From: a virus
DNA: 64,000 nucleotides
Direction: 5' to 3' (one strand)
Virus record (IMG/VR): IMGVR_UViG_3300024243_000005
Span: 116,180-180,179 of that record
Shown here: positions 8,662 through 50,532 of the stretch, piece after piece
Position numbering within the stretch: the first letter of the stretch is position 1
How the letters are laid out: the number at the start of each line of letters is the position of its first letter
Translations under genes and position numbers: made by a program
The notes under the pieces: generated by a model
The model's database searches: none
Seen by the model: only the letters and a program-made list of their open reading frames with translations
Told to the model about the DNA's origin: nothing

Positions 8662-8964
8662 TCAACCGGCATTCTGCTCAAGGGCTTTTGCGCGGGCACG
8701 TGCGCGCGTCTCCAACTTCTGTAGGTAGTTCTTGAGCTTCCACTCAGCCATAGGCGCGTGGCATTTCACCTCGTGCCGCAGGTACGTAGCCTCCTCCATT
8801 GCACCTTTTCCCGCCCAATGCACTAGCGCAGATTCTCGCATCTCCTGCAACAAGGCAATCTGCTTCACATAGTTCTCCTCCAGCGCACGCGTGCTCTTCA
8901 GCAGCGCTACTACCTTCTCCGCTGTCATCGGAGGTTTCGTATCAATATCATCGATTCCTGCCAT
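8662..8964 (-). CDS. Helical protein, 100 aa
   Basis: Mostly alpha-helical and charged (TAEKVVALLKSTRALEENYV; KLETRARARAKALEQ). Likely coiled coil. Unrecognised. Confidence 0.7.
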   Translation of the reverse strand: MAGIDDIDTKPPMTAEKVVALLKSTRALEENYVKQIALLQEMRESALVHWAGKGAMEEATYLRHEVKCHAPMAEWKLKNYLQKLETRARARAKALEQNAG

Positions 8965-9038
8965 AACCCCTCTCAGGTTGATTAAATAAACTCAGTTGAT
9001 GTAGAGTGCGAAGTACACAACTCACACGGAGACGAAAC

Positions 9039-9599
9039 ATGACCCACATCGGAAAGATTCTGACCAAGGCACGCCCCACCATCCAACACTTCCGCGCACA
9101 CATCCTCCTGGTGTGCCTCGCAGCCATGCTCGTCGCTTGCCCCGCTGGGATGTCCGTCTATGACCACATGCGCAACGTGCTCAGCTACCAGGATGTGGGC
9201 ACCGCGTTCTCCGACGCCATCGTGAAGCGTTGGATGTCCAAGCAGACCGACGAGGCCAAGAAAGCCGAGGTCCAGGCCAAGTACGACAAGATCAAGCTGA
9301 GCACCCTCAAGGGCATCGCCGCCCTGGAGGCGACCATCGATACCGCTGAGAACGCCGGGACCGGAGGTGACCCCAAGAAGCTGCGCGAGGACGTCAAGAA
9401 GCTCGTGGCCAAGCTCCTGGACTTCGGCCTGTCGCTGGAGAGCGCCATCACGCCCGTGGACCCACTGCCTGCGACCCCTGCGCCCGACACTGCCACACCT
9501 GCATCTGCGCCGAACAGCAACTACCTGGACGTGGTGCGCGAACGTAACCGGATCCTGGCCAGGATCGACGCGGACTTCGAGCGCCGGTTCAACTTGTAG
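9039..9599 (+). CDS. Putative lipoprotein with coiled-coil body
   Basis: 186 aa, start at MTHIGK with GGAG 8 nt upstream. A basic N-region is followed by the hydrophobic stretch ILLVCLAAMLVAC, ending in a lipobox-like LVAC. The mature part is helical and charged, with a Pro/Ala/Thr linker before the C-terminus. First of three plus-strand genes at 9.0-10.5 kb. The long N-region makes signal-peptidase II processing an inference. Confidence 0.7.
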   Translation: MTHIGKILTKARPTIQHFRAHILLVCLAAMLVACPAGMSVYDHMRNVLSYQDVGTAFSDAIVKRWMSKQTDEAKKAEVQAKYDKIKLSTLKGIAALEATIDTAENAGTGGDPKKLREDVKKLVAKLLDFGLSLESAITPVDPLPATPAPDTATPASAPNSNYLDVVRERNRILARIDADFERRFNL

Positions 9600-9628
9600 C
9601 GCCCGCACGCCCCGCCTATAATGCTGGC

Positions 9629-41808: not shown

Positions 41809-42204
41809 CTACTTCCCTCGTCTCTGGTAAGCGCGCACTCTATCACTCTTGGGGGCCAATTCGTCCAGCCATTCCGTCAAGACCTTACGCACCTTCTTGC
41901 TCTGCGCAGTCTTGTTCGTGGGCATACGCTCCTCGACCCACTGCCCGGCGATCAGTGCAGCGTTGAACCTATCACCCCACACCAGACCTTTGGGGTCCAC
42001 GGGGAGCATGATGAGCGTGTGTACCTGCTCGGAACTCTTCACCAGGATGCGACCCTTGTCGCCCGCCTTGTTCACGAAGAGGACGGCTTGTCCTGGCTTC
42101 AGTTTGTACTGGCTGGAAGTGAGGTGCATCGTGTTGGCTTGCCAACTCACCGTGCGCAGATCTGTTGGGCGCACGACAGTCTTGATGACCCATTCGTGGG
42201 ACAT
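41809..42204 (-). CDS. Hypothetical protein, 131 aa
   Basis: ATG with CTAAAAAAGAAGGAG upstream. Beta-rich (YKLKPGQAVLFVNKAGDKGR), basic C-terminus. It is the first gene downstream of the array on the same strand, so it could be read from the same transcript. No link to Cas function is evident. Confidence 0.65.
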   Translation of the reverse strand: MSHEWVIKTVVRPTDLRTVSWQANTMHLTSSQYKLKPGQAVLFVNKAGDKGRILVKSSEQVHTLIMLPVDPKGLVWGDRFNAALIAGQWVEERMPTNKTAQSKKVRKVLTEWLDELAPKSDRVRAYQRRGK

Positions 42205-42256
42205 GAGGCTCCTTCTTTTTTAGGGTGGTGGGGGTAGTAACAAGCAAGTGGGGCAC

Positions 42257-43587
42257 GTCACAGATATGAAGCCTCTGTGCTGGCGTGGGAGACATTGGCC
42301 GTTGTCGCCAGTACAAGGCCCTGGCGCTGGCGTAACGACGTGTATCGCTCGTCACAAATACAAAGCCCCTGTGCTGGCGTAGCGTCAATCGTTTCAAGTC
42401 ACAAATACTAAGCCTTTGTGCTGGCATAATGGTATCTGGCTTAGGGGCACAAATACAAAGCCTCTGCGCTGGCGTTGCCACCTATGTTGCACGTCATCAG
42501 TATAAAGCCCTGACGCTGGCCCTTAGATACGTTCAGCGTTGGGGGCACAGATATCAAGCCTCTGCGCTGGCATAAGTGCACTCCAGACCTGGGTCACGAA
42601 TACGAAGCCTCCGTGTTGGCATTATCCAGGTACGTCCATCGGCGTCAGTACAAGGCCCTGACGCGGGCGTAGGAGAGAAGTCTGGATCACAGATACAAAA
42701 CCTCTGCGCGGGTGTAAAGACGACTGCGAGGTCGGCGCAGAAACAAAGCCTCTGCGCTGGCGTGAAGAAACTATACAAGGCGCTACAGATACGAAGCCTC
42801 TGTATCGGCGTCAAACCAACCCATGTGCTTATCACGAGTATGAGGCCCCCGTGCTGGCATGGAAGTAGAATCCTAGATCAAGGCGGTAGTACAAAGCCCC
42901 ATCGCTGGCATTATTGATCAGGCAATTCTATCGCAGATACCAAGCCTCCGCGCTGGCGTTATCGATTTCCTCAATGGCGCAGATACAACGCCCCTGCGCT
43001 GGCACAGCATGTTCATGATGGCGGTCACAGATACAAAGCCTCTGCGCTGGCGTATACAAAGCGAAGTACGTTGTGGGTACGAAGCCCCCGCGCTGGCACA
43101 GACGTTCAAGAAGGCGTCGTCAGTACAAAGCCCCAACGTTGGTGTAGGAGAGAAGCCTGAGTCACAGATACGAAGCCTCTGTGTTGGCGCAACAGCAGGG
43201 CGGTTAATGTCGTCGGTACAACGCCCCGACGCGGGCACGGTTCCGTTTGGGGGTAGGTCGTCGGTACAACGCCCCAACGCGGGCACTGAACAAGTTGGAA
43301 TTCGGTCACAGATACGAAGCCTCTGCGCTGGCATAGGGAGCTATGTCTATCGTTGTCAGTACAAAGCCCTGGCGCGGGCGTAATGCTCATGGTGGCGGTC
43401 ACAGATACAAAGCCACCGTGCTGGCGTATAACATAGCGTTCATCATAGGCGCAGATACGAAGCCTTCGCGCTGGCACAGATTAGTGTAGTAGTTTCACAG
43501 GCTGCTTGTCACAGATACCAAGCCTCTGTGCGGGCACCACCAGGAGTCCCACATGGGCACAAGTACAAAGCCCTCATGCTGGCGTTG
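42257..43587 (-). CRISPR. CRISPR-like array of 28 degenerate, structure-conserved units
   Basis: 28 units spaced 45-51 bp apart (one gap of 60; mean about 48). Read on the minus strand each unit is AYGCCAG - 6-nt stem - GGCTTYGTA - 6-nt stem - AC, about 30 nt, followed by a variable segment usually near 17 nt. The stem sequence varies but pairing is kept: CACAGA/TCTGTG (42259), CACAAA/TTTGTG (42400), CGTCAG/CTGACG (42643), CGCCAG/CTGGCG (42306), TACAGA/TCTGTA (42784), CGTCGG/CCGACG (43211). Nine stems are perfect, fourteen more pair fully only with G-U pairs of the minus-strand RNA, two only on the plus strand, and three contain a mismatch either way. The GGC at the loop's 5' edge can pair with GCC upstream, an H-type pseudoknot; one unit (42700) changes both sides (ACC/GGT). 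The first unit begins one base after the nuclease gene's stop codon. No separate leader or tracrRNA was identified. Confidence 0.85.
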
Positions 43588-45354
43588 TTATGCATTTTTC
43601 GTGTGGCGCTTTGCCCACTTCGCTTGGCGGGGTGCGGTATTTACGGCGTAATCCTTGACCTTGGTGGGCACAGCTTCCTTAGCCCCCTGCTGGTGTTCGT
43701 CCCAGCGAAGCAGCAGGTTGTGCGCTGCGTTAGCGTCCTGATCCCAGTTTGCCTGGCACTCGCTGCATGTGTGCATCACCTCTTTTGAGGCGTCCCAGGG
43801 TTCTTCCGGGTGGTCGCCACACACCGCACAATCCTGTGTGGTCATCGCTGCATTCACCTCAGCGACGGCGCCGAGACGCATCGCAAACCCATTGATGAGG
43901 TTGCTACGCAGTACCGAACACGCGGCGTCCCGTTGGTACAACCGGGCAGAAGCGATCTCTCCCTTATCAGACTCGGGGAGGACGTGCCGTTGCATTACGC
44001 TCAAATCGAACTGTTCCAGGACAAGAGTGTGGTACTTCCGCGAGAGGCGAGCGGCGATGTTACGGTACTGGTCCTTGCGGCGAGCGAGGCTCTTGTCACG
44101 TTGATTTGCTTCCCAGGACAACAGGTGCTTATCCTGCTTACGCCAGTCTTCCAAGCGCGGGTAGGCCAGGGTGTCACCTGCGAAGCGGGAGTCCCGCCAC
44201 GTACGTGCAAGCGCCGCTAGGCGTGCCGTTGAACGCCAAGCATGCAACGTCGTTGCAGCCTCAATCAACCAGTCAGGGAGCGACGCCCCTTGTTTCGTTT
44301 GGCGGCGCATCCACGCAGCCAGCCAATCACGCTCAATGTTGAAGTTCTTGTCACGTGTGCTGCGCAGGTCCTCGACCTTGCGGAACCCAGAGCGGACAGC
44401 CCCCTCAAGGAGGATCTCCTCCTCATATCCTTGGTTGTCACGGAAGTACGCGACACGGAGGAGTCCACTGGGACGCACACGCCACCCAATGTCCACGGCC
44501 ACAGTGCCAGTGCCACATGTTTCGCGGCGCCAGCCATCAGGGAGCGACAATGTAAAGTGGACGCTCCAGCGATCCTTGCCCGCCAGGCGTTCACGCAGAA
44601 CTTTGACATCCTTGATCGTGGCCACCCGAGGCAGAGGACGGTGCAGGATGAGCGGCCAGGTTGCCCAGATGGGCGTCGTTTTGCCCTGCACGGTACCAAC
44701 ACGCATCTTCAACTCAGAGCGCTTCGGGTTCGAACCGACGAAGATGCGCAGAAGTGTACTGTCACAGGCTAGTGCCTCAAAACTACTCAACCCTTTTTGT
44801 ATCTGTACAGCGACGGCACCATGCCCCGTCCAACGCCGAAAGTGGGGGTCCACAAACGCAGCTTTGCGTGCTGCATCCACGGCCTTCTCAATAATTAGAT
44901 ATGTACCCCAGTAGCAACCACAGATTGCGCGTTCTTTCCGGATAGTAGCCTGCGCACTTTCATTCACCTTGTTGATGGCTGTCTGTACCGCCGTGTCATC
45001 CTTGAGTGCAGCTTTAGCCTTGCGCAGTTCCGCACGCACTGTCTTGAGCTGCTGCCGTGCAATCTTCACACGCTTCCGTTGCTCCTTGGTGGAAGAACGT
45101 GAACGTGATGCTCTGTGTGTCGCCCGGAGATCAGCGATTGCAGCATCAACGACTGCTTTTTTCGCTGTCGCTTCTTCTTCGAGAGGTTCTACCGTCGGAT
45201 GGACACCCATGATGGCGCGTACCTTCTTACGGCGGTCACGTTCAATCTCGATGAGTTTGTTGTAATACTGATGTGCCAAATGTATCTGGTCGGATACGAG
45301 ATCCACGTTTTCACACGGGGGTCTAAGCCCGTAGCGATACACTAGAATGGGCAT
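43588..45354 (-). CDS. Compact Cas12-family RNA-guided nuclease (type V-M/Cas12m-like)
   Basis: 588 aa; ATG at 45354 with AAAAAAGAGGAG 4 nt upstream. RuvC-I: VAVDIGWR with D288. RuvC-II: LVLEQFDL with E447. Zinc ribbon: C509/C512 and C530/C533 (CAVCGDH, CSECQANW). RuvC-III: DQDANAAHNLL with D540. Residues about 55-145 are a Lys/Glu-rich coiled coil, and GCYWGTYLIIEKAVD, then RRWTGHGAVAVQIQ, WKD-like ARTWRD and RRKDQYRNIAARLS repeat the layout I recall for mycobacterial Cas12m. Unlike that protein, where RuvC residues are altered, all three acids are present here, so DNA cleavage is plausible. TnpB proteins are shorter (about 400 aa) and lack the downstream array. It contains an imperfect TTTACGGCGTAAT copy near its 3' end. 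Confidence 0.85.
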   Translation of the reverse strand: MPILVYRYGLRPPCENVDLVSDQIHLAHQYYNKLIEIERDRRKKVRAIMGVHPTVEPLEEEATAKKAVVDAAIADLRATHRASRSRSSTKEQRKRVKIARQQLKTVRAELRKAKAALKDDTAVQTAINKVNESAQATIRKERAICGCYWGTYLIIEKAVDAARKAAFVDPHFRRWTGHGAVAVQIQKGLSSFEALACDSTLLRIFVGSNPKRSELKMRVGTVQGKTTPIWATWPLILHRPLPRVATIKDVKVLRERLAGKDRWSVHFTLSLPDGWRRETCGTGTVAVDIGWRVRPSGLLRVAYFRDNQGYEEEILLEGAVRSGFRKVEDLRSTRDKNFNIERDWLAAWMRRQTKQGASLPDWLIEAATTLHAWRSTARLAALARTWRDSRFAGDTLAYPRLEDWRKQDKHLLSWEANQRDKSLARRKDQYRNIAARLSRKYHTLVLEQFDLSVMQRHVLPESDKGEIASARLYQRDAACSVLRSNLINGFAMRLGAVAEVNAAMTTQDCAVCGDHPEEPWDASKEVMHTCSECQANWDQDANAAHNLLLRWDEHQQGAKEAVPTKVKDYAVNTAPRQAKWAKRHTKNA

Positions 45355-45373
45355 GCTGCTCCTCTTTTTTAGA

Positions 45374-45832
45374 TCAGATGATTTCGTCGTCAGGGTGTCG
45401 TAGTGGGGGTTCAACGATGTGTACGGCGTGGGCGCAGTCTTGGGTGTCAACACCCAGGTTGCCACGTAGGAACATGGCGTAGCGCTCGTCAGGACCAACG
45501 GCTGTGACGTGTCGCCCTCGGCGGATCATCTGGAGGGGGTGCACCGTTTTGTAGTGGACAGCGCAGCCTTTGGTGACTGTGTGGATGCCTCGGGTGTTCT
45601 TCATATAAACGTGGATTGAAACCCCTTCCGGGATTGGTGCATGTTGTCCGTGGCGCATCTTAGTGCAGACGTACACATGTTCGTAGATGTTGAAGAGGAG
45701 GCAGAAGCAACGGTTACAATAGCGCACACGGTACATGCGCTGCACCTTGGAGGGGAACTTCTGTTGCTGGAGGCAGGGGATTGCCAGAGCACAGTGTCCA
45801 CAGGCTTTGTCGGTGGTGAGGATGGTTCTCAT
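45374..45832 (-). CDS. CxxCPxxxxC-family paralog 1 (most divergent)
   Basis: 152 aa. N-terminal ACGHCALAIPCLQQQK replaces the usual CP by CA; then YCNRCFCLLF and VCTKMRHG. Last gene of the eleven-gene paralog run and immediately upstream of the Cas12-like gene on the same strand; 20 bp separate its stop from the nuclease ATG, so cotranscription is likely. Confidence 0.75.
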   Translation of the reverse strand: MRTILTTDKACGHCALAIPCLQQQKFPSKVQRMYRVRYCNRCFCLLFNIYEHVYVCTKMRHGQHAPIPEGVSIHVYMKNTRGIHTVTKGCAVHYKTVHPLQMIRRGRHVTAVGPDERYAMFLRGNLGVDTQDCAHAVHIVEPPLRHPDDEII

Positions 45833-46275
45833 GGCTTCTTTATGGGGAGGGAGAAGGCCCCTGATTGCAACGCGTGGAGCGTCTCATCGAGGAACTCTTC
45901 GTCCATGTCATGGATTGGTGTTTGGAAGTCGTACCCCCCTTTGTGCAGGATACAACTGGGGCACACTCCCGCGTTTATGTAGATGCCGAGGACAGGGTCT
46001 TTGATGCGCGTCTCAGGGGTGCCTGTGGCGTTCGCCGCAGCGACGTAGTTTGGCACACAAGAGGAGTCGGTCATGCTGCGCCGCTCACACCTGAACATCA
46101 CCACCTTCTTGACTCGGGGTATGTGGGTGCGAGACTGCATTGATTCAGGTACGGGGTAGGTTTCTTTAAGGACGAAGCGTGTACACCTCACGCACAGGAA
46201 GGTTTCACTGTTGTTCATCTTGAACAACGCCCCGGAGAGGCAAGCGACGGCGAAGGGACAGCGCTTACATTTCAT
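45829..46275 (-). CDS. CxxCPxxxxC-family paralog 2
   Basis: 148 aa starting MKCKRCPFAVACLSGALFK (C3, C6, C12), then CVRC (C28, C31), a FRCERRS strand near residue 62, DPVLG and a C-terminal CPSC. This is the archetype of the family: N-terminal three-cysteine knuckle, second CxxC, central F-x-C-E-K/R-R, then DP-x-x-G and a last CxxC. Predicted zinc or Fe-S protein; role unknown. 4-nt overlaps at both ends. Confidence 0.8.
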   Translation of the reverse strand: MKCKRCPFAVACLSGALFKMNNSETFLCVRCTRFVLKETYPVPESMQSRTHIPRVKKVVMFRCERRSMTDSSCVPNYVAAANATGTPETRIKDPVLGIYINAGVCPSCILHKGGYDFQTPIHDMDEEFLDETLHALQSGAFSLPIKKP

Positions 46276-46649
46276 CCGATCTTCTTCCGGTGATCCTGCG
46301 CAGCGGCTTGTTGTAGTTCCTCCGACACACACGTGGAACACTTGCCCAACGGGATGTCGGTACCTGTCATTGGGTCCGTGACGTACGCAATAGTGTTTCT
46401 CGATGTAACAGCCTCGGACACTTGTTCGTGCACAAAATTGGACTCTGGGGGGCTGCGTTTCTCACAAAGGAATTCCACTATACGTTTGGGTTGTGGGATG
46501 ACACGCACACACACTGTTTCCGCCACAGGGGGATTCTCAATGATGATGAGGCGGGAACATTTAGCGCACAGACACACGTAGCTGCTGTTTATTTTGAACA
46601 GCGCCCCGGACATGCACGCAACCACGAAAGGACAGCGCTTACACTTCAT
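46272..46649 (-). CDS. CxxCPxxxxC-family paralog 3
   Basis: 125 aa, MKCKRCPFVVACMSGALFK, nearly identical in its first 19 residues to paralog 2, then CLCAKC, FLCEKRS, DPMTG and CSTC. A recent duplicate of paralog 2. Confidence 0.8.
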   Translation of the reverse strand: MKCKRCPFVVACMSGALFKINSSYVCLCAKCSRLIIIENPPVAETVCVRVIPQPKRIVEFLCEKRSPPESNFVHEQVSEAVTSRNTIAYVTDPMTGTDIPLGKCSTCVSEELQQAAAQDHRKKIG

Positions 46650-47100
46650 CGAGGTGCTCCACGGCGTATACCTCCTTGTCCCCAATGGCTTGGGGCACGG
46701 CGCCTTTGCATTCCTCACATTTGGTAATCTTGATGTGGCTCGTACCTCCCGGCGACATCGGGTCTATGGGCTCACCCAAGGCTCCTGATGATAATTTATC
46801 CAGGTTGAAGACGTCTACCTGGGGGATGTCGTAGATATCCAGGAACGCACGGTCCAGCTTCTCACAGTGGAGGTATCGACGCGCGGCAACGGCTACTTCT
46901 GTTTGCCATACACGCAGAGGGTTGTCGGGTGGTGACCCGGGAGCAGGGTCCACGTCGATGAGTTCGTAGGATGTGACCTGCAACCGCGCGCACTCACGAC
47001 AAAGGAGGATTGTGATGCTGCTCCCTATCACTGCGCCCACCTCTGATTGGAGCTTTCCCGCCATGCACAGCAGCACATAAGGACACCGGCTACACTTCAC
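46639..47100 (-). CDS. CxxCPxxxxC-family paralog 4
   Basis: 153 aa from GTG 47100. VKCSRCPYVLLCMAGKL, LCRECARL, LHCEKLD, then IDPMSPGGT and KCEECK. Contains more acidic residues in the centre than its neighbours. Confidence 0.75.
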   Translation of the reverse strand: MKCSRCPYVLLCMAGKLQSEVGAVIGSSITILLCRECARLQVTSYELIDVDPAPGSPPDNPLRVWQTEVAVAARRYLHCEKLDRAFLDIYDIPQVDVFNLDKLSSGALGEPIDPMSPGGTSHIKITKCEECKGAVPQAIGDKEVYAVEHLDEV

Positions 47101-47644
47101 GCCCGTCCTTTCCTTTGATCCCCCAGGGGTGCACCAGCGCTTCCATTGCCCCACTGTCCCGCGCTCGCTTGAACGCCAGCTCGTCGTCCAGGTTCACGAT
47201 GCGGTAGGCGCTGAAGGCACCATGCCTGCGCTCCTCACAATTACAGCGGTTGCAAACCTGCATGCGGAGAACTGTTCCACCTACGGGGTCCACGACGTTC
47301 ATTGTGATGGGCTCCGCCAAGGAAGACATGTGGTCTCCCGGGTCACCCACGGTAGATGTGGCAATACCTTTGCCTTCCGCAGTGTTCCGTACCCGATCAA
47401 CAATATCCGCGTAGCTTCGCTTCTCACAGATGAGGTAGGTCAGCGTCCCATCGTAGGGCAACACACCATGAAACTGCCGATAGAATTCAACAGTGTCAGC
47501 GGGTTCATTAGGCCCCGGACCAGCCTTGGCGTGCACAAGCTCAAGGCGCCGACACCGATAGCAGAGCGACGCAGTGCGGTCCTTGGAGTGCAGGAGCGTT
47601 CCACCGAGGCACGGCAAGACGAGAGGGCACTCTTTACATTTCAT
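47090..47644 (-). CDS. CxxCPxxxxC-family paralog 5
   Basis: 184 aa, MKCKECPLVLPCLGGTL, CYRCRRLELV, LICEKRS, VDPVGGTVLRMQ and CNRCNCEE. Longer C-terminal helix than paralogs 2-4. Confidence 0.8.
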   Translation of the reverse strand: MKCKECPLVLPCLGGTLLHSKDRTASLCYRCRRLELVHAKAGPGPNEPADTVEFYRQFHGVLPYDGTLTYLICEKRSYADIVDRVRNTAEGKGIATSTVGDPGDHMSSLAEPITMNVVDPVGGTVLRMQVCNRCNCEERRHGAFSAYRIVNLDDELAFKRARDSGAMEALVHPWGIKGKDGREV

Positions 47645-48126
47645 GGCGTGTCTCCCGTGGGGACGATGATCTTTCGCAGCTCACTCTCCTCCCGCAGTCT
47701 CTCTCGGATGAGGTTGCCCCCAGCCTGCCCCACCGCTTCAAAGATGGCCACCGTCTGCTTCGCCATCATCTCTGTGATTGCAGGGTCAGTGAAGGTGACC
47801 TTCCGGGAGTCCAGGTCCTCGTGCAGCTTAATGCGGTAAGGGAGAACACGGCGGTCCTCGGGGTCACACATGGTGCAGCCCGAGACGAGCAGTGGGCCAC
47901 CGTCCACAGGGTCCACGAGCTGAACACCACGACGTACCTCCGGAGCGGCGCGGTACTGGAACTGCAGCACGTCAAGGTTCCTCTTCTCACACACGAAGTG
48001 CAAGCTGCGGGGCTCCTGCACGAGTAGTTCGAGACGCCCACACTGAGGACATAGGCGCATAACGATGGCGCTGTGGAAGGTACCCTGCATGCATGGTAGG
48101 GCGACGGGGCAGTGTTTGCATTTCAT
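47641..48126 (-). CDS. CxxCPxxxxC-family paralog 6
   Basis: 161 aa, MKCKHCPVALPCMQGTF, LCPQCGRLELL, FVCEKRN, VDPVDGGPLLVSG and CTMCDPED, helical C-terminus with RERLREESELRKI. ATG overlaps paralog 7's stop. Confidence 0.8.
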   Translation of the reverse strand: MKCKHCPVALPCMQGTFHSAIVMRLCPQCGRLELLVQEPRSLHFVCEKRNLDVLQFQYRAAPEVRRGVQLVDPVDGGPLLVSGCTMCDPEDRRVLPYRIKLHEDLDSRKVTFTDPAITEMMAKQTVAIFEAVGQAGGNLIRERLREESELRKIIVPTGDTP

Positions 48127-48683
48127 GATTTCTTCTCTTTGTCACCAAGGATGTACTCTGGTGGCACACCCGTACCTCGTATCATGAGATTGAGCGTAGC
48201 ATCGTATCGCTCACGCATGGTGTTTGTCTTACGTACTTGGCGTAGTGTTTTTAGGAGCACACTTCTTTTCTTAGCCATCTCAGCATCGGGGTCCTTTGCT
48301 GAAAAGGTGATTCGCTGCATGTCGAGGTCCTCGTACATTTCTACCACGTACAGATTGTGCCGAGGTCCGTCACACCGGATGCAAGCAGACACAGGCAGGA
48401 AACCGCCGGACACTGGGTCGACAACCTGAATGCCTCTTCCATCCTTGGGAGCATCAATAATAGCTTGTTGCAATGTAAGCAGGTTCCTCTTCTCACACCG
48501 GAAGTACAGCGCGCGCTTTACGCGGTAAACTGGGCCGTTGAGAGCACCACGCGTTTTAACGGGGAGCACCTCAAATAGCCCACATACTTGGCACAAGTTG
48601 ATGATGACTGCGAAGGCGTGGTGATTGTCGAACCACACCCCCTGCATACACGGCAAGGCCAGGGGACAGTTTCCACACTTCAA
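48123..48683 (-). CDS. CxxCPxxxxC-family paralog 7
   Basis: 186 aa. The TTG at 48683 is chosen because it lies 8 nt after GGAGGG, overlaps the upstream TGA (TTGA) and aligns with the family start (KCGNCPLALPCMQGVW). Then LCQVCG, FRCEKRN, VDPVSGGFLPVS and CIRCDG; closest to paralog 6. A TTTACGCGGTAAA site lies in its coding region (48517). Confidence 0.75.
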   Translation of the reverse strand: MKCGNCPLALPCMQGVWFDNHHAFAVIINLCQVCGLFEVLPVKTRGALNGPVYRVKRALYFRCEKRNLLTLQQAIIDAPKDGRGIQVVDPVSGGFLPVSACIRCDGPRHNLYVVEMYEDLDMQRITFSAKDPDAEMAKKRSVLLKTLRQVRKTNTMRERYDATLNLMIRGTGVPPEYILGDKEKKS

Positions 48684-49087
48684 AACAAAGACCCTCCTGG
48701 CCCTGCTCCTGGACCGAAAATGAGGTTGTGAACCTCGTTGATGAGTTCCGTCGCGCACTCTTCACACAGGGTTACGAGGAAGTCTTTCCCTAGAACAACA
48801 GGAACGTGACTGTACGAAAAGCGTTGCACCTCCTCCCGCTTCCTTTTCACCACGCGTCGGATGGCATTTTCGAAGGCCCCCTTGAGTTTGTTGGCAGAGT
48901 AGTTTTCACTTTGTACGCAGATAGGTAGGAGGTCCCACACCTCGTGGATCTCAGCTTGCCCCACTCGCAATACTTGCACCTTGTTACATGTTGGACACAC
49001 CACGATCCCGCGCACTGGTTCCTTTCCCGCCAGACATGCTAGAGCGTGGGGGCATTTGGCACAGGCTGATGTTATTTCATGAATCAT
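48680..49087 (-). CDS. CxxCPxxxxC-family paralog 8
   Basis: 135 aa, ACAKCPHALACLAGKEPVRG, VCPTCNKVQVL; a shorter central region and a last CEEC. Two residues before the first Cys extend the usual N-terminus. Confidence 0.75.
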   Translation of the reverse strand: MIHEITSACAKCPHALACLAGKEPVRGIVVCPTCNKVQVLRVGQAEIHEVWDLLPICVQSENYSANKLKGAFENAIRRVVKRKREEVQRFSYSHVPVVLGKDFLVTLCEECATELINEVHNLIFGPGAGPGGSLF

Positions 49088-49542
49088 GATCCATAGCTAC
49101 CGGGCCGAGACACCACCCCCACGTTCTCGTGGATGGTGCTAGGGTCGTAGCCTCGCAGAGCATCAGGGTGGTCGTCCACATCAATGTACAAGACGCGTGT
49201 GCTCCGGTTGAAGTATTTGCTCTGTCCGAAGATAGCATCACAGAGGCCACACGTTTCGTCCTCGTTCCGCTGCATCGCTGCCTTACGTACGAGCTTATAC
49301 CCTGTGATGTAGGGGCGATCGGCAGGTTCCATGCTTTTGACCGGAGGGCACTCGAAGATCCAAACGATGTCGTGTAACACCAATATCTCAGGTACCCCAT
49401 TTTTCCCTGGGATACGGATGTGCCTGTCTCCACGTGGGGCAAGTACGGCGGTACGCTCACACCCCTCGCACAGATGCATAAACCCAGGTGGCTCCCCATT
49501 CTGCATGCACGGGATAGCGAAAGGGCATCTACGACAATCCAC
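49084..49542 (-). CDS. CxxCPxxxxC-family paralog 9
   Basis: 152 aa from GTG 49542, VDCRRCPFAIPCMQNGEPPG, CEGCERTAVLA, FECPPVK in place of the CEKR strand, and CGLCDAIFG at the C-terminal CxxC. Overlaps paralog 10 by 14 nt. Confidence 0.75.
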   Translation of the reverse strand: MDCRRCPFAIPCMQNGEPPGFMHLCEGCERTAVLAPRGDRHIRIPGKNGVPEILVLHDIVWIFECPPVKSMEPADRPYITGYKLVRKAAMQRNEDETCGLCDAIFGQSKYFNRSTRVLYIDVDDHPDALRGYDPSTIHENVGVVSRPGSYGS

Positions 49543-49954
49543 TATTATCCCCCAGGAATAAGCGAAGACCCCAAACGTGGTCACGGTCTTCAAGGTCTCC
49601 GCAGTAAACACGAGGACGGTCTGCCGCACCGTCGCGCTTGAGATCGTTGATACAGTTGGGGCACTTGATGACGTGACACCCACCCATACGATGCCCGGCG
49701 ATAACCTCGGGGTGTACGCGCACGAAAGGAGCCACGGGCATTCCGTTTTTGCTGGGGTCAGGGAACACGACTTCCTTGACCTTGGGACACACGAAGCTCC
49801 ACCACATGACTTGCGGACAACGGTTTCGGTACGTTTCAGTATTGACAGGACGGCGCACCCACACCCGAAGACACTCAGGGCACACCTTCGCGGCGTTCGG
49901 CGGGCGACCATTTGCCAAGCACCACACCGCGAAGGGGCATTTTGCACATATCAC
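49529..49954 (-). CDS. CxxCPxxxxC-family paralog 10
   Basis: 141 aa from GTG 49954, ICAKCPFAVWCLANGRPP, VCPECLRVWVR, FVCPKVK and KCPNCINDLKRDG. Groups with paralog 9 by the NGxPP sequence after the third cysteine. Confidence 0.75.
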   Translation of the reverse strand: MICAKCPFAVWCLANGRPPNAAKVCPECLRVWVRRPVNTETYRNRCPQVMWWSFVCPKVKEVVFPDPSKNGMPVAPFVRVHPEVIAGHRMGGCHVIKCPNCINDLKRDGAADRPRVYCGDLEDRDHVWGLRLFLGDNSGLS

Positions 49955-50532
49955 TGAGTAGTGAGCTTGATCATGCCCGGCGAGCGATGTGGCGTCGCAT
50001 CCAGGTCAATCCAGTTTTCGTCAATGTACCGGAGGGTGGCGTGGTTGGGAGGCTTCGGAAGGGCGGGATTGTGCATGTACTCACACTCACAACATACTGA
50101 AACAGTGAGCGCCGGTTGCGTACGCTGCGGGCGGGGGTCTTCGACGTGGTGCGTGACGTTCGTGTACTGCTGCCAGTACCAGTTCAGCTTGTAGATCTGG
50201 AAGTCCTCGGGAGACTCATCTTCGTGCCGCTTGCGTGGGAGAGTAACCGCCTGCATACCGAGATCAATGCTGTCCACCGAGACACCTGTGTCGCGCCGTG
50301 TTCCTGGCAGCTTGCACGCGTCCACGACATCGCGCAGCAGTGGGCGCTCCTCACAGGTGAAGAGGAAGGTCACGTACTTATCTTCGGGGGCAGTCCCCTG
50401 CGCCAGCACGAGGGTGGGCTTCTTCTTCATGTTGATGAAGAACCGCCCACAGTGCAGGCACAACCCGTAGGTCCCAGCGATGAAGCTACCCCCGTAGCAG
50501 ACCATCATGAAAGGGCACTTGCGACATTTCAT
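49951..50532 (-). CDS. CxxCPxxxxC-family paralog 11
   Basis: 193 aa, MKCRKCPFMMVCYGGSF, LCLHCGRFFIN, FTCEERPLL, later CCECEYMHNPALPKPP. First member of the uninterrupted paralog run in transcription order. Confidence 0.8.
   Translation of the reverse strand: MKCRKCPFMMVCYGGSFIAGTYGLCLHCGRFFINMKKKPTLVLAQGTAPEDKYVTFLFTCEERPLLRDVVDACKLPGTRRDTGVSVDSIDLGMQAVTLPRKRHEDESPEDFQIYKLNWYWQQYTNVTHHVEDPRPQRTQPALTVSVCCECEYMHNPALPKPPNHATLRYIDENWIDLDATPHRSPGMIKLTTQ

Follow-up and report, generated by a model that had tools for sequence, protein, structure and literature searches.

Can a CRISPR array lose the sequence identity of its repeats and still be kept as a set of guide RNAs? The question is raised by a phage locus in a window of 64,000 nt (the whole stretch analysed, positions 116,180 to 180,179 of IMG/VR record IMGVR_UViG_3300024243_000005), where a compact Cas12-like gene is followed by 28 short units that agree in layout far better than in sequence. 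The locus and its next gene are arranged as follows:

43588-45354, minus strand: cas12m effector gene, 588 aa, with a D-E-D RuvC triad and a zinc ribbon; TAAAAAAGAGGAG ribosome-binding site before the ATG
42239-43585, minus strand: eroded guide array of 28 units, each a 30-nt handle plus a guide of ~18 nt
41809-42204, minus strand: next gene, 131 aa, no family match; the same TAAAAAAGAAGGAG element before the ATG

Gene and array share the minus strand, with the array beginning 2 nt past the cas12m stop codon; the 131-aa gene probably forms one transcription unit with the array.

The RuvC triad (D288/E447/D540) and the zinc ribbon of the original prediction are both present in the 588-aa protein, the ribbon with four cysteines (C509, C512, C530 and C533). 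The protein had been left in the Cas12/TnpB superfamily at large; that it is a compact type V effector held, and profile search and structure prediction now place it as Cas12m (type V-M). A search of the PDB matched residues 5-549 to Cas12m 23vw_A (E=4e-75), with further Cas12m entries at 1e-19 to 5e-21. The PADLOC Cas12u1 model gave 6e-102, and a PADLOC model labelled Cas12f scored the protein too (2.9e-99). Cas12u1 is the V-U1 group, now named V-M. An AlphaFold (AF2) model built with 27 family sequences (pLDDT 87.9, pTM 0.77) retrieved Cas12m structures at Foldseek ranks 1-4 (8hhl, 8pm4, 8hio and 8hhm; 3e-30 to 2e-23), Cas12f coming after them at 1e-11. By Pfam and fold together, the protein is of Cas12m type and has a TNB domain resembling that of Cas12f1. 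The gene codes for a full-length Cas12m of type V-M (formerly V-U1). A TnpB/IS605 identity, with a single omegaRNA at the right end of the element and a guide taken from the flank, was rejected: an array of 28 units is present and Cas12m scores far above TnpB.

Cas12m proteins with D-E-D, H-D-D and N-D-D triads all bind DNA and none cut it (PMC11013384). Because tested D-E-D members bind without cleaving, the intact triad of the phage protein does not imply cutting, even if it leaves room for it. By analogy with these D-E-D orthologs (PMC11013384), the phage protein would bind DNA in a PAM-dependent manner without double-strand cleavage. Triads in the viral family are mostly D-E-D and elsewhere H-M-D, H-A-D, H-P-D, N-G-D and others, a variation that fits a binding role.

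A handle model recovers all 28 units in the 180-kb record and detects no further ones elsewhere in it at scores comparable to the array. The handles located with this model are:

43556-43585, minus strand: handle 1; guide 43538-43555; model R1, 40.2 bits
43508-43537, minus strand: handle 2; 30-nt guide 43478-43507
43448-43477, minus strand: handle 3
43398-43427, minus strand: handle 4; guide related to guide 12
43352-43381, minus strand: handle 5
43305-43334, minus strand: handle 6
43257-43286, minus strand: handle 7
43209-43238, minus strand: handle 8
43161-43190, minus strand: handle 9; guide related to guide 19
43116-43145, minus strand: handle 10
43070-43099, minus strand: handle 11
43024-43053, minus strand: handle 12; nearest the model consensus, R1 48.1 bits
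42976-43005, minus strand: handle 13
42930-42959, minus strand: handle 14
42882-42911, minus strand: handle 15
42831-42860, minus strand: handle 16
42782-42811, minus strand: handle 17
42734-42763, minus strand: handle 18
42686-42715, minus strand: handle 19; pseudoknot pair altered on both sides, A-U for G-C
42641-42670, minus strand: handle 20
42593-42622, minus strand: handle 21
42544-42573, minus strand: handle 22
42493-42522, minus strand: handle 23
42446-42475, minus strand: handle 24
42398-42427, minus strand: handle 25
42351-42380, minus strand: handle 26
42304-42333, minus strand: handle 27
42257-42286, minus strand: handle 28, the last; guide 42239-42256

Each 30-nt handle follows the layout RY-GCC-NN-stem6-loop9-stem6'-AC, with GGCTTTGTA as the loop. 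The predicted 28 units, 6-bp stem and 9-nt loop were all found, as was the 45-51 bp spacing with a single exception of 60 bp. Guide segments measure 15-21 nt in 27 of 28 units (median 18), one is 30 nt long and none falls below 15 nt. All 28 handles differ from one another and contain 23 different stems; their pairwise identity averages 0.70 and ranges from 0.40 to 0.97. The near-identical direct repeats usual in CRISPR arrays are thus absent from the window array, and the unique, length-constrained spacers that also mark such arrays are present, with two related guide pairs. We class it as derived from a CRISPR array by erosion and not as a standard one. Assembly error was ruled out as the origin of the repeat variation, as two other assemblies (L001 and L002) carry the array without a single difference. 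A diversity-generating retroelement was likewise ruled out as its source: substitutions among handles comprise 139 transitions and 42 transversions and are not adenine-specific. An Rfam search found no known RNA.

Variation in sequence had been predicted to go with constancy of structure, and the aligned handles bear this out. All six stem pairs carry changes on both sides that preserve pairing; across stem and pseudoknot, 96.8% of cells are paired versus 84.2% in shuffles, and 45 cells hold double changes versus 13.4, neither value being reached in any of 500 shuffles. Sliding the partners by 1-3 columns as a control left at most six double-change cells. G-U pairs fit an RNA read from the minus strand, that of the gene, only. 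The second helix is a pseudoknot between the GCC at the handle 5' end and GGC in the loop, nearly invariant (0.10 bits) next to the freely varying stem (0.99 bits). A counterpart exists in 28 of 28 family handles with 18 different sequences, versus a mean of 13.7 and a maximum of 19 under random dealing of loops; the pairs include GCC/GGC, AAGGC/GCCTT, CCCC/GGGG, AGAGC/GCTCT and AGTT/AACT. These data show that both helices of the handle are maintained by compensatory change amid sequence drift. The original prediction had overlooked the pseudoknot helix, as well as the homology to the ordinary 36-nt V-M repeats of relatives. At several stem pairs one to three units have a broken pair, and some units may be dead.

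An array that is unused and merely drifting could also present no two repeats alike, a few broken stem pairs and guides for which no targets are found. Unselected drift would, however, break stems, against the 96.8% of paired cells (84% shuffled) and the 45 double changes (13 shuffled), and would hardly leave the pseudoknot columns at 0.10 bits beside stem columns at 0.99 bits; moreover, every guide has at least 15 nt and the effector gene is intact. We consider such a decaying remnant very unlikely.

What the units retain can be compared with Cas12m crRNA structures. The cryo-EM structure of MmCas12m2 shows a crRNA in which -22..-17 and -8..-3 pair as a 6-bp helix, whereas no order is seen for nt -36 to -30. 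The protein contacts stem and pseudoknot through their sugar-phosphate backbone, His269/Arg270 read C(-1) and the G(-23):A(-2) pair, and the guide-target heteroduplex spans 17 bp (PMC10442227). In GoCas12m the repeat-derived handle is ~30 nt long and the readout is 18 bp (PMC11013384). The window handle begins at about -30 and forms its 6-bp helix at -23..-18 with -8..-3, and its loop exceeds that of MmCas12m2 by one base; since the handle starts at about -30, the part of the repeat absent from the window is the part disordered in MmCas12m2. Among the base-read positions, C(-1) is present in 25 of 28 handles, A(-2) in 19 and the matching partner G in 24. By this comparison, the structures explain the pattern: the stem, apparently held by its backbone, varies, and the base-read positions are largely kept. 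Likewise, what the units lack (repeat -36 to -30, guide past 17) would correspond to what is disordered or unpaired in cryo-EM, and the analogy shows a unit length (30 + ~18 nt) equal to one mature Cas12m crRNA. Together with the covariation of the stem, this agreement supports the proposal of a compact guide-RNA system with recognition by fold. Residues H238/R239 of the 588-aa protein align with His269/Arg270 of MmCas12m2 and are near-invariant across the family. This retention of handle-reading residues speaks against units that serve as RNA decoys, or as anti-CRISPR mimics of repeats, directed at a Cas12m-like system of the host instead of guiding the phage's own protein; the array also lies directly behind an intact effector gene of its own, which is the arrangement in nearly all relatives, and a decoy has no need for 28 different guides of constant length. 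That explanation seems to us scarcely credible.

Where did such an array come from? A search for the gene-array pair in other large phages had been suggested, and Cas12m relatives were found at 40 viral loci and in three bacterial bins, with an array directly downstream in nearly all. Ordinary members, the majority among the viral relatives, combine 36-nt repeats with ~37-nt spacers in units of ~73 bp. The relative nearest by identity (L021, 43%) has the repeat GAAACAACGCCCGTGCAGAGGCAGTGTATCTGCAAC in units of ~73 bp, and the last 30 nt of this repeat align with the window handle consensus. Judged from such sequence comparison, the window array is descended from ordinary V-M arrays. Other eroded arrays occur in L026, L039, L042 and L053 (31/33, 11/11, 6/6 and 7/7 differing repeats, respectively), and single shortened spacers of 17-24 nt in L021, L034, L037, L038, L048 and L059. 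In a quickly built maximum-likelihood tree, which serves as a guide only because many end branches are long, the degenerate state requires seven changes, at least five of them forced by well-supported branches; read in this way, the tree shows repeat erosion arising repeatedly, at least five times. Repeat identity drops with distance from the gene in L013 (rho -0.73), L026 (-0.45), L028 (-0.69) and L029 (-0.65), so that in several relatives erosion is commonest at the gene-distal end; along the window array no such gradient was found (rho 0.14, p 0.46). An argument from a lost leader was dropped, as relatives with identical repeats have short leaders too.

Recurrent erosion, together with the difference among all 28 handles and the deletion-prone nature of identical tandem repeats, could suggest that divergence itself is selected and prevents deletion of units by recombination. 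The original prediction had raised a limit on recombination in this form, and it fared poorly. Exact runs that two handles have in common are not shortened: their mean, 7.78, lies slightly above the 7.30 given by independently varying sites. Runs of at least 18 nt are shared by 2.1% of handle pairs vs 0.6%, and relatives retain up to 23 identical repeats (L046). We regard this selection as improbable; the divergence of the handles looks like transition-rich point mutation with compensation.

Models of Cas1, Cas2, Cas4 and Cas6 had no match in the whole 180-kb record, which may be incomplete, in line with the absence of these genes nearby that had been noted before, and no cas1 was detected in 38 viral records. 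Ordinary members do not seem static: L036 and L038, whose DNA is 87% alike, have just the last, gene-distal spacer in common, which suggests turnover of spacers at the gene side. Both lack cas1, and spacer gain in trans within the family is possible. As to the phage itself, its terminase relatives belong to phages of Salmonella, Vibrio and Bacillus (22-31% identity); a related phage (G040) has a terminase 51% identical and no Cas12m. Arrays without the nuclease gene in related phages, which had been named as counter-evidence to a guide-RNA system, were met solely in the converse form: L045 (phage G001) has a Cas12m gene without an array, and 17 solitary handle-like units are scattered over its genome. 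A start-codon element was considered for these units, of which only 6 of the 17 lie at most 25 nt from an ORF-starting ATG (random 12.6%).

The suggested search of the variable segments for targets brought no credible protospacer in the phage's own genome, the relatives' loci or viral contigs. Near-matches were not in excess over shuffled guides in the own 180-kb record, nor in G040 and G001, and short BLAST against the loci of all relatives returned only spacers common to near-identical phages. The L046 array had no convincing target among 50,697 phages. Five exact scans of 2.9 million viral contigs (IMG/VR) with 5-6 guides, guide 1 among them, found one off-array site, with GGC upstream and no TTN PAM, which we judged a chance match. 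These scans are weak evidence either way, because exact 18-nt matches in large collections are near chance level. Within the array, guide pairs 4/12 and 9/19 have 13 matching positions each, a value that the second-best pair never attained in 200 shuffles, and the handle parts beside them resemble each other too, the pattern of duplicated units.

The guides could be a fixed regulatory set for host takeover, each one selected for CRISPRi-like silencing of host genes, and not an immune memory against competing phages. The lack of acquisition genes and young repeats, guides clamped at 15-21 nt and a preserved crRNA fold agree with it, as does the binding and repression by Cas12m (PMC11013384); guides 4 and 12 differ at positions that would be synonymous in one frame, and spacers of phages directed at host genes are reported in a survey of huge phages, also for an effector without a catalytic residue (PMC7162821). 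Against it, none of the guides could be paired with a host gene, 28 guides seem many for a regulon, and the two diverged guide pairs could equally follow variant foreign targets. We view this purpose as plausible but somewhat doubtful.

Our preferred explanation, with a probability of about 0.77, is that the phage carries a type V-M (Cas12m) CRISPR system whose array is closed, eroded and vertically inherited, with crRNAs that are still selected for fold and guide length and silence by binding. The array would be transcribed, perhaps from the side of the gene, and Cas12m would process the transcript and load each unit, recognising the fold through contacts with the backbone and with a few bases near the handle 3' end. 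The ribonucleoprotein would then bind PAM-flanked DNA over ~17 bp and block transcription or replication without cutting. Spacer gain would have ended long ago, as we infer for the window from the lack of young identical repeats; we propose that repeats were freed from staying identical because, once gain had stopped, no match for integration was needed. Point mutation and small deletions would wear each unit down to the needs of the effector, and guides, now inherited, would change by mutation and, as in pairs 4/12 and 9/19, at times by duplication.

Characterised type V-M systems (MmCas12m2, GoCas12m) share with the window a full-length homologous and compact effector of the same fold, a handle of ~30 nt that contains a 6-bp helix and a pseudoknot, a 17-18-nt guide readout and the largely kept 3' C and near-3' G:A; adaptation genes are absent from the window's record. 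The window differs in having unlike repeats (28 of 28, down to 40% identity) that are ~6 nt shorter at the 5' end than the usual 36-nt repeat, and spacers reduced from ~37 to ~18 nt, whereas Bigelyte et al. found repeats highly conserved between orthologous Cas12m systems (PMC11013384). The huge-phage V-U systems likewise combine a V-U effector and an array in a large phage without cas1/2/4, but their repeats, in the accessible part of that account, are treated as ordinary (PMC7162821). In the 197-kb phage Virus Rctr197k (KX853510), a homologous gene (34% identical protein, annotated 'similar to transposase') precedes an array of 73-bp units, whose 36-nt repeats, unlike those of the window, are ordinary near the gene and diverged at the far end only. 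TIGR-Tas is also a phage-borne tandem guide array with short guides. Its repeats are dual-spacer. A TIGR-Tas identity was rejected: the window effector has no NOP domain and is of Cas12m type by Pfam and fold. In the open-access papers searched for degenerate or divergent repeats, no fold-kept, sequence-eroded, crRNA-sized units are described. The effector is of a kind already known; what is new is the array, a V-M array in eroded form.

The locus amounts to a natural mutagenesis of the guide RNA of a compact DNA-binding Cas12: 28 working-sized handles from one phage separate essential bases from those needed for pairing only, and the units display the minimal handle and guide. They could be of use for compact CRISPRi or base-editing arrays without identical repeats, today's cloning problem. 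CRISPR arrays are recognised by the hallmark of identical repeats; this identity can disappear while the crRNA constraint persists, and such arrays are therefore probably missed by repeat finders. More tentatively, and with less than even confidence, phage Cas12m systems may repeatedly quit adaptive CRISPR, the array turning into an inherited set of crRNA genes, held by fold and worn to the mature crRNA; the end point may be scattered solitary units of the L045 type that run a fixed guide-RNA programme, for host takeover or inter-phage warfare, and evolve by mutation and duplication. The finding thus raises the question of whether phages convert acquired immunity into fixed regulatory guide sets.

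The neighbourhood of the window cas12m contains two copies of one short element and a run of small genes:
Window 45355-45375: CTAAAAAAGA(A)GGAG element, before cas12m
Window 42205-42225: CTAAAAAAGA(A)GGAG element, before the gene that follows the guide array
Window 45374-50532 (-): approximately ten consecutive small genes, just upstream of cas12m

The genome has 17 copies of the heptamer TAAAAAA where 0-4 would be expected, and it and the CTAAAAAAGA(A)GGAG element may be a phage promoter or translation element. Most of the small genes carry a CxxCP..xxCxxG-like motif at their start (e.g., MKCKRCPFAVACLSG and MKCKHCPVALPCMQG), by which they appear to be a tandem family of zinc-ribbon paralogs; the two tested against Pfam gave no significant match.

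The window phage also encodes an RNA polymerase of the multisubunit type, identified by domain matches in a segment of its 180-kb record:
L017:3818-8527 and L017:12204-13997 (63818-73997 of the record): RNA polymerase genes

One 1569-aa protein fuses beta-like and beta-prime-like domains (Rpb2_6, Rpb2_3, Rpb1_1 and Rpb1_2), and Rpb1_5 sits in a second protein.

Among the relatives, KX853510.1 (L013:5944-9360) has a Cas12m gene that is labelled 'similar to transposase' in GenBank despite an intact reading frame of 622 aa, and a CRISPR array is annotated beside it. The relative locus L040 has an additional array (8964-9614), approximately 3 kb past the first and identical to it in repeat.

The related phage IMGVR_UViG_3300027983_000009 has a cas12m (L045; RuvC triad H-P-D) and no array. 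Approximately 18 solitary handle-like units (expectation for the motif, 0.1) are dispersed across 82.7 kb of its genome on both strands (L062-L066), several of them intergenic and one immediately ahead of cas12m. Their role is unsure, because they lack the conserved 3' AC of the handle, the repeat-derived part of an array unit.

In two other relatives, pairs of handle copies lie outside the array, directly upstream of the cas12m start, at distances of 44-78 and 115-178 nt:
L044:3923-3987: handle-copy pair
L053:3763-3855: handle-copy pair

These pairs possibly serve autoregulation, in which the effector would act through its own handle.
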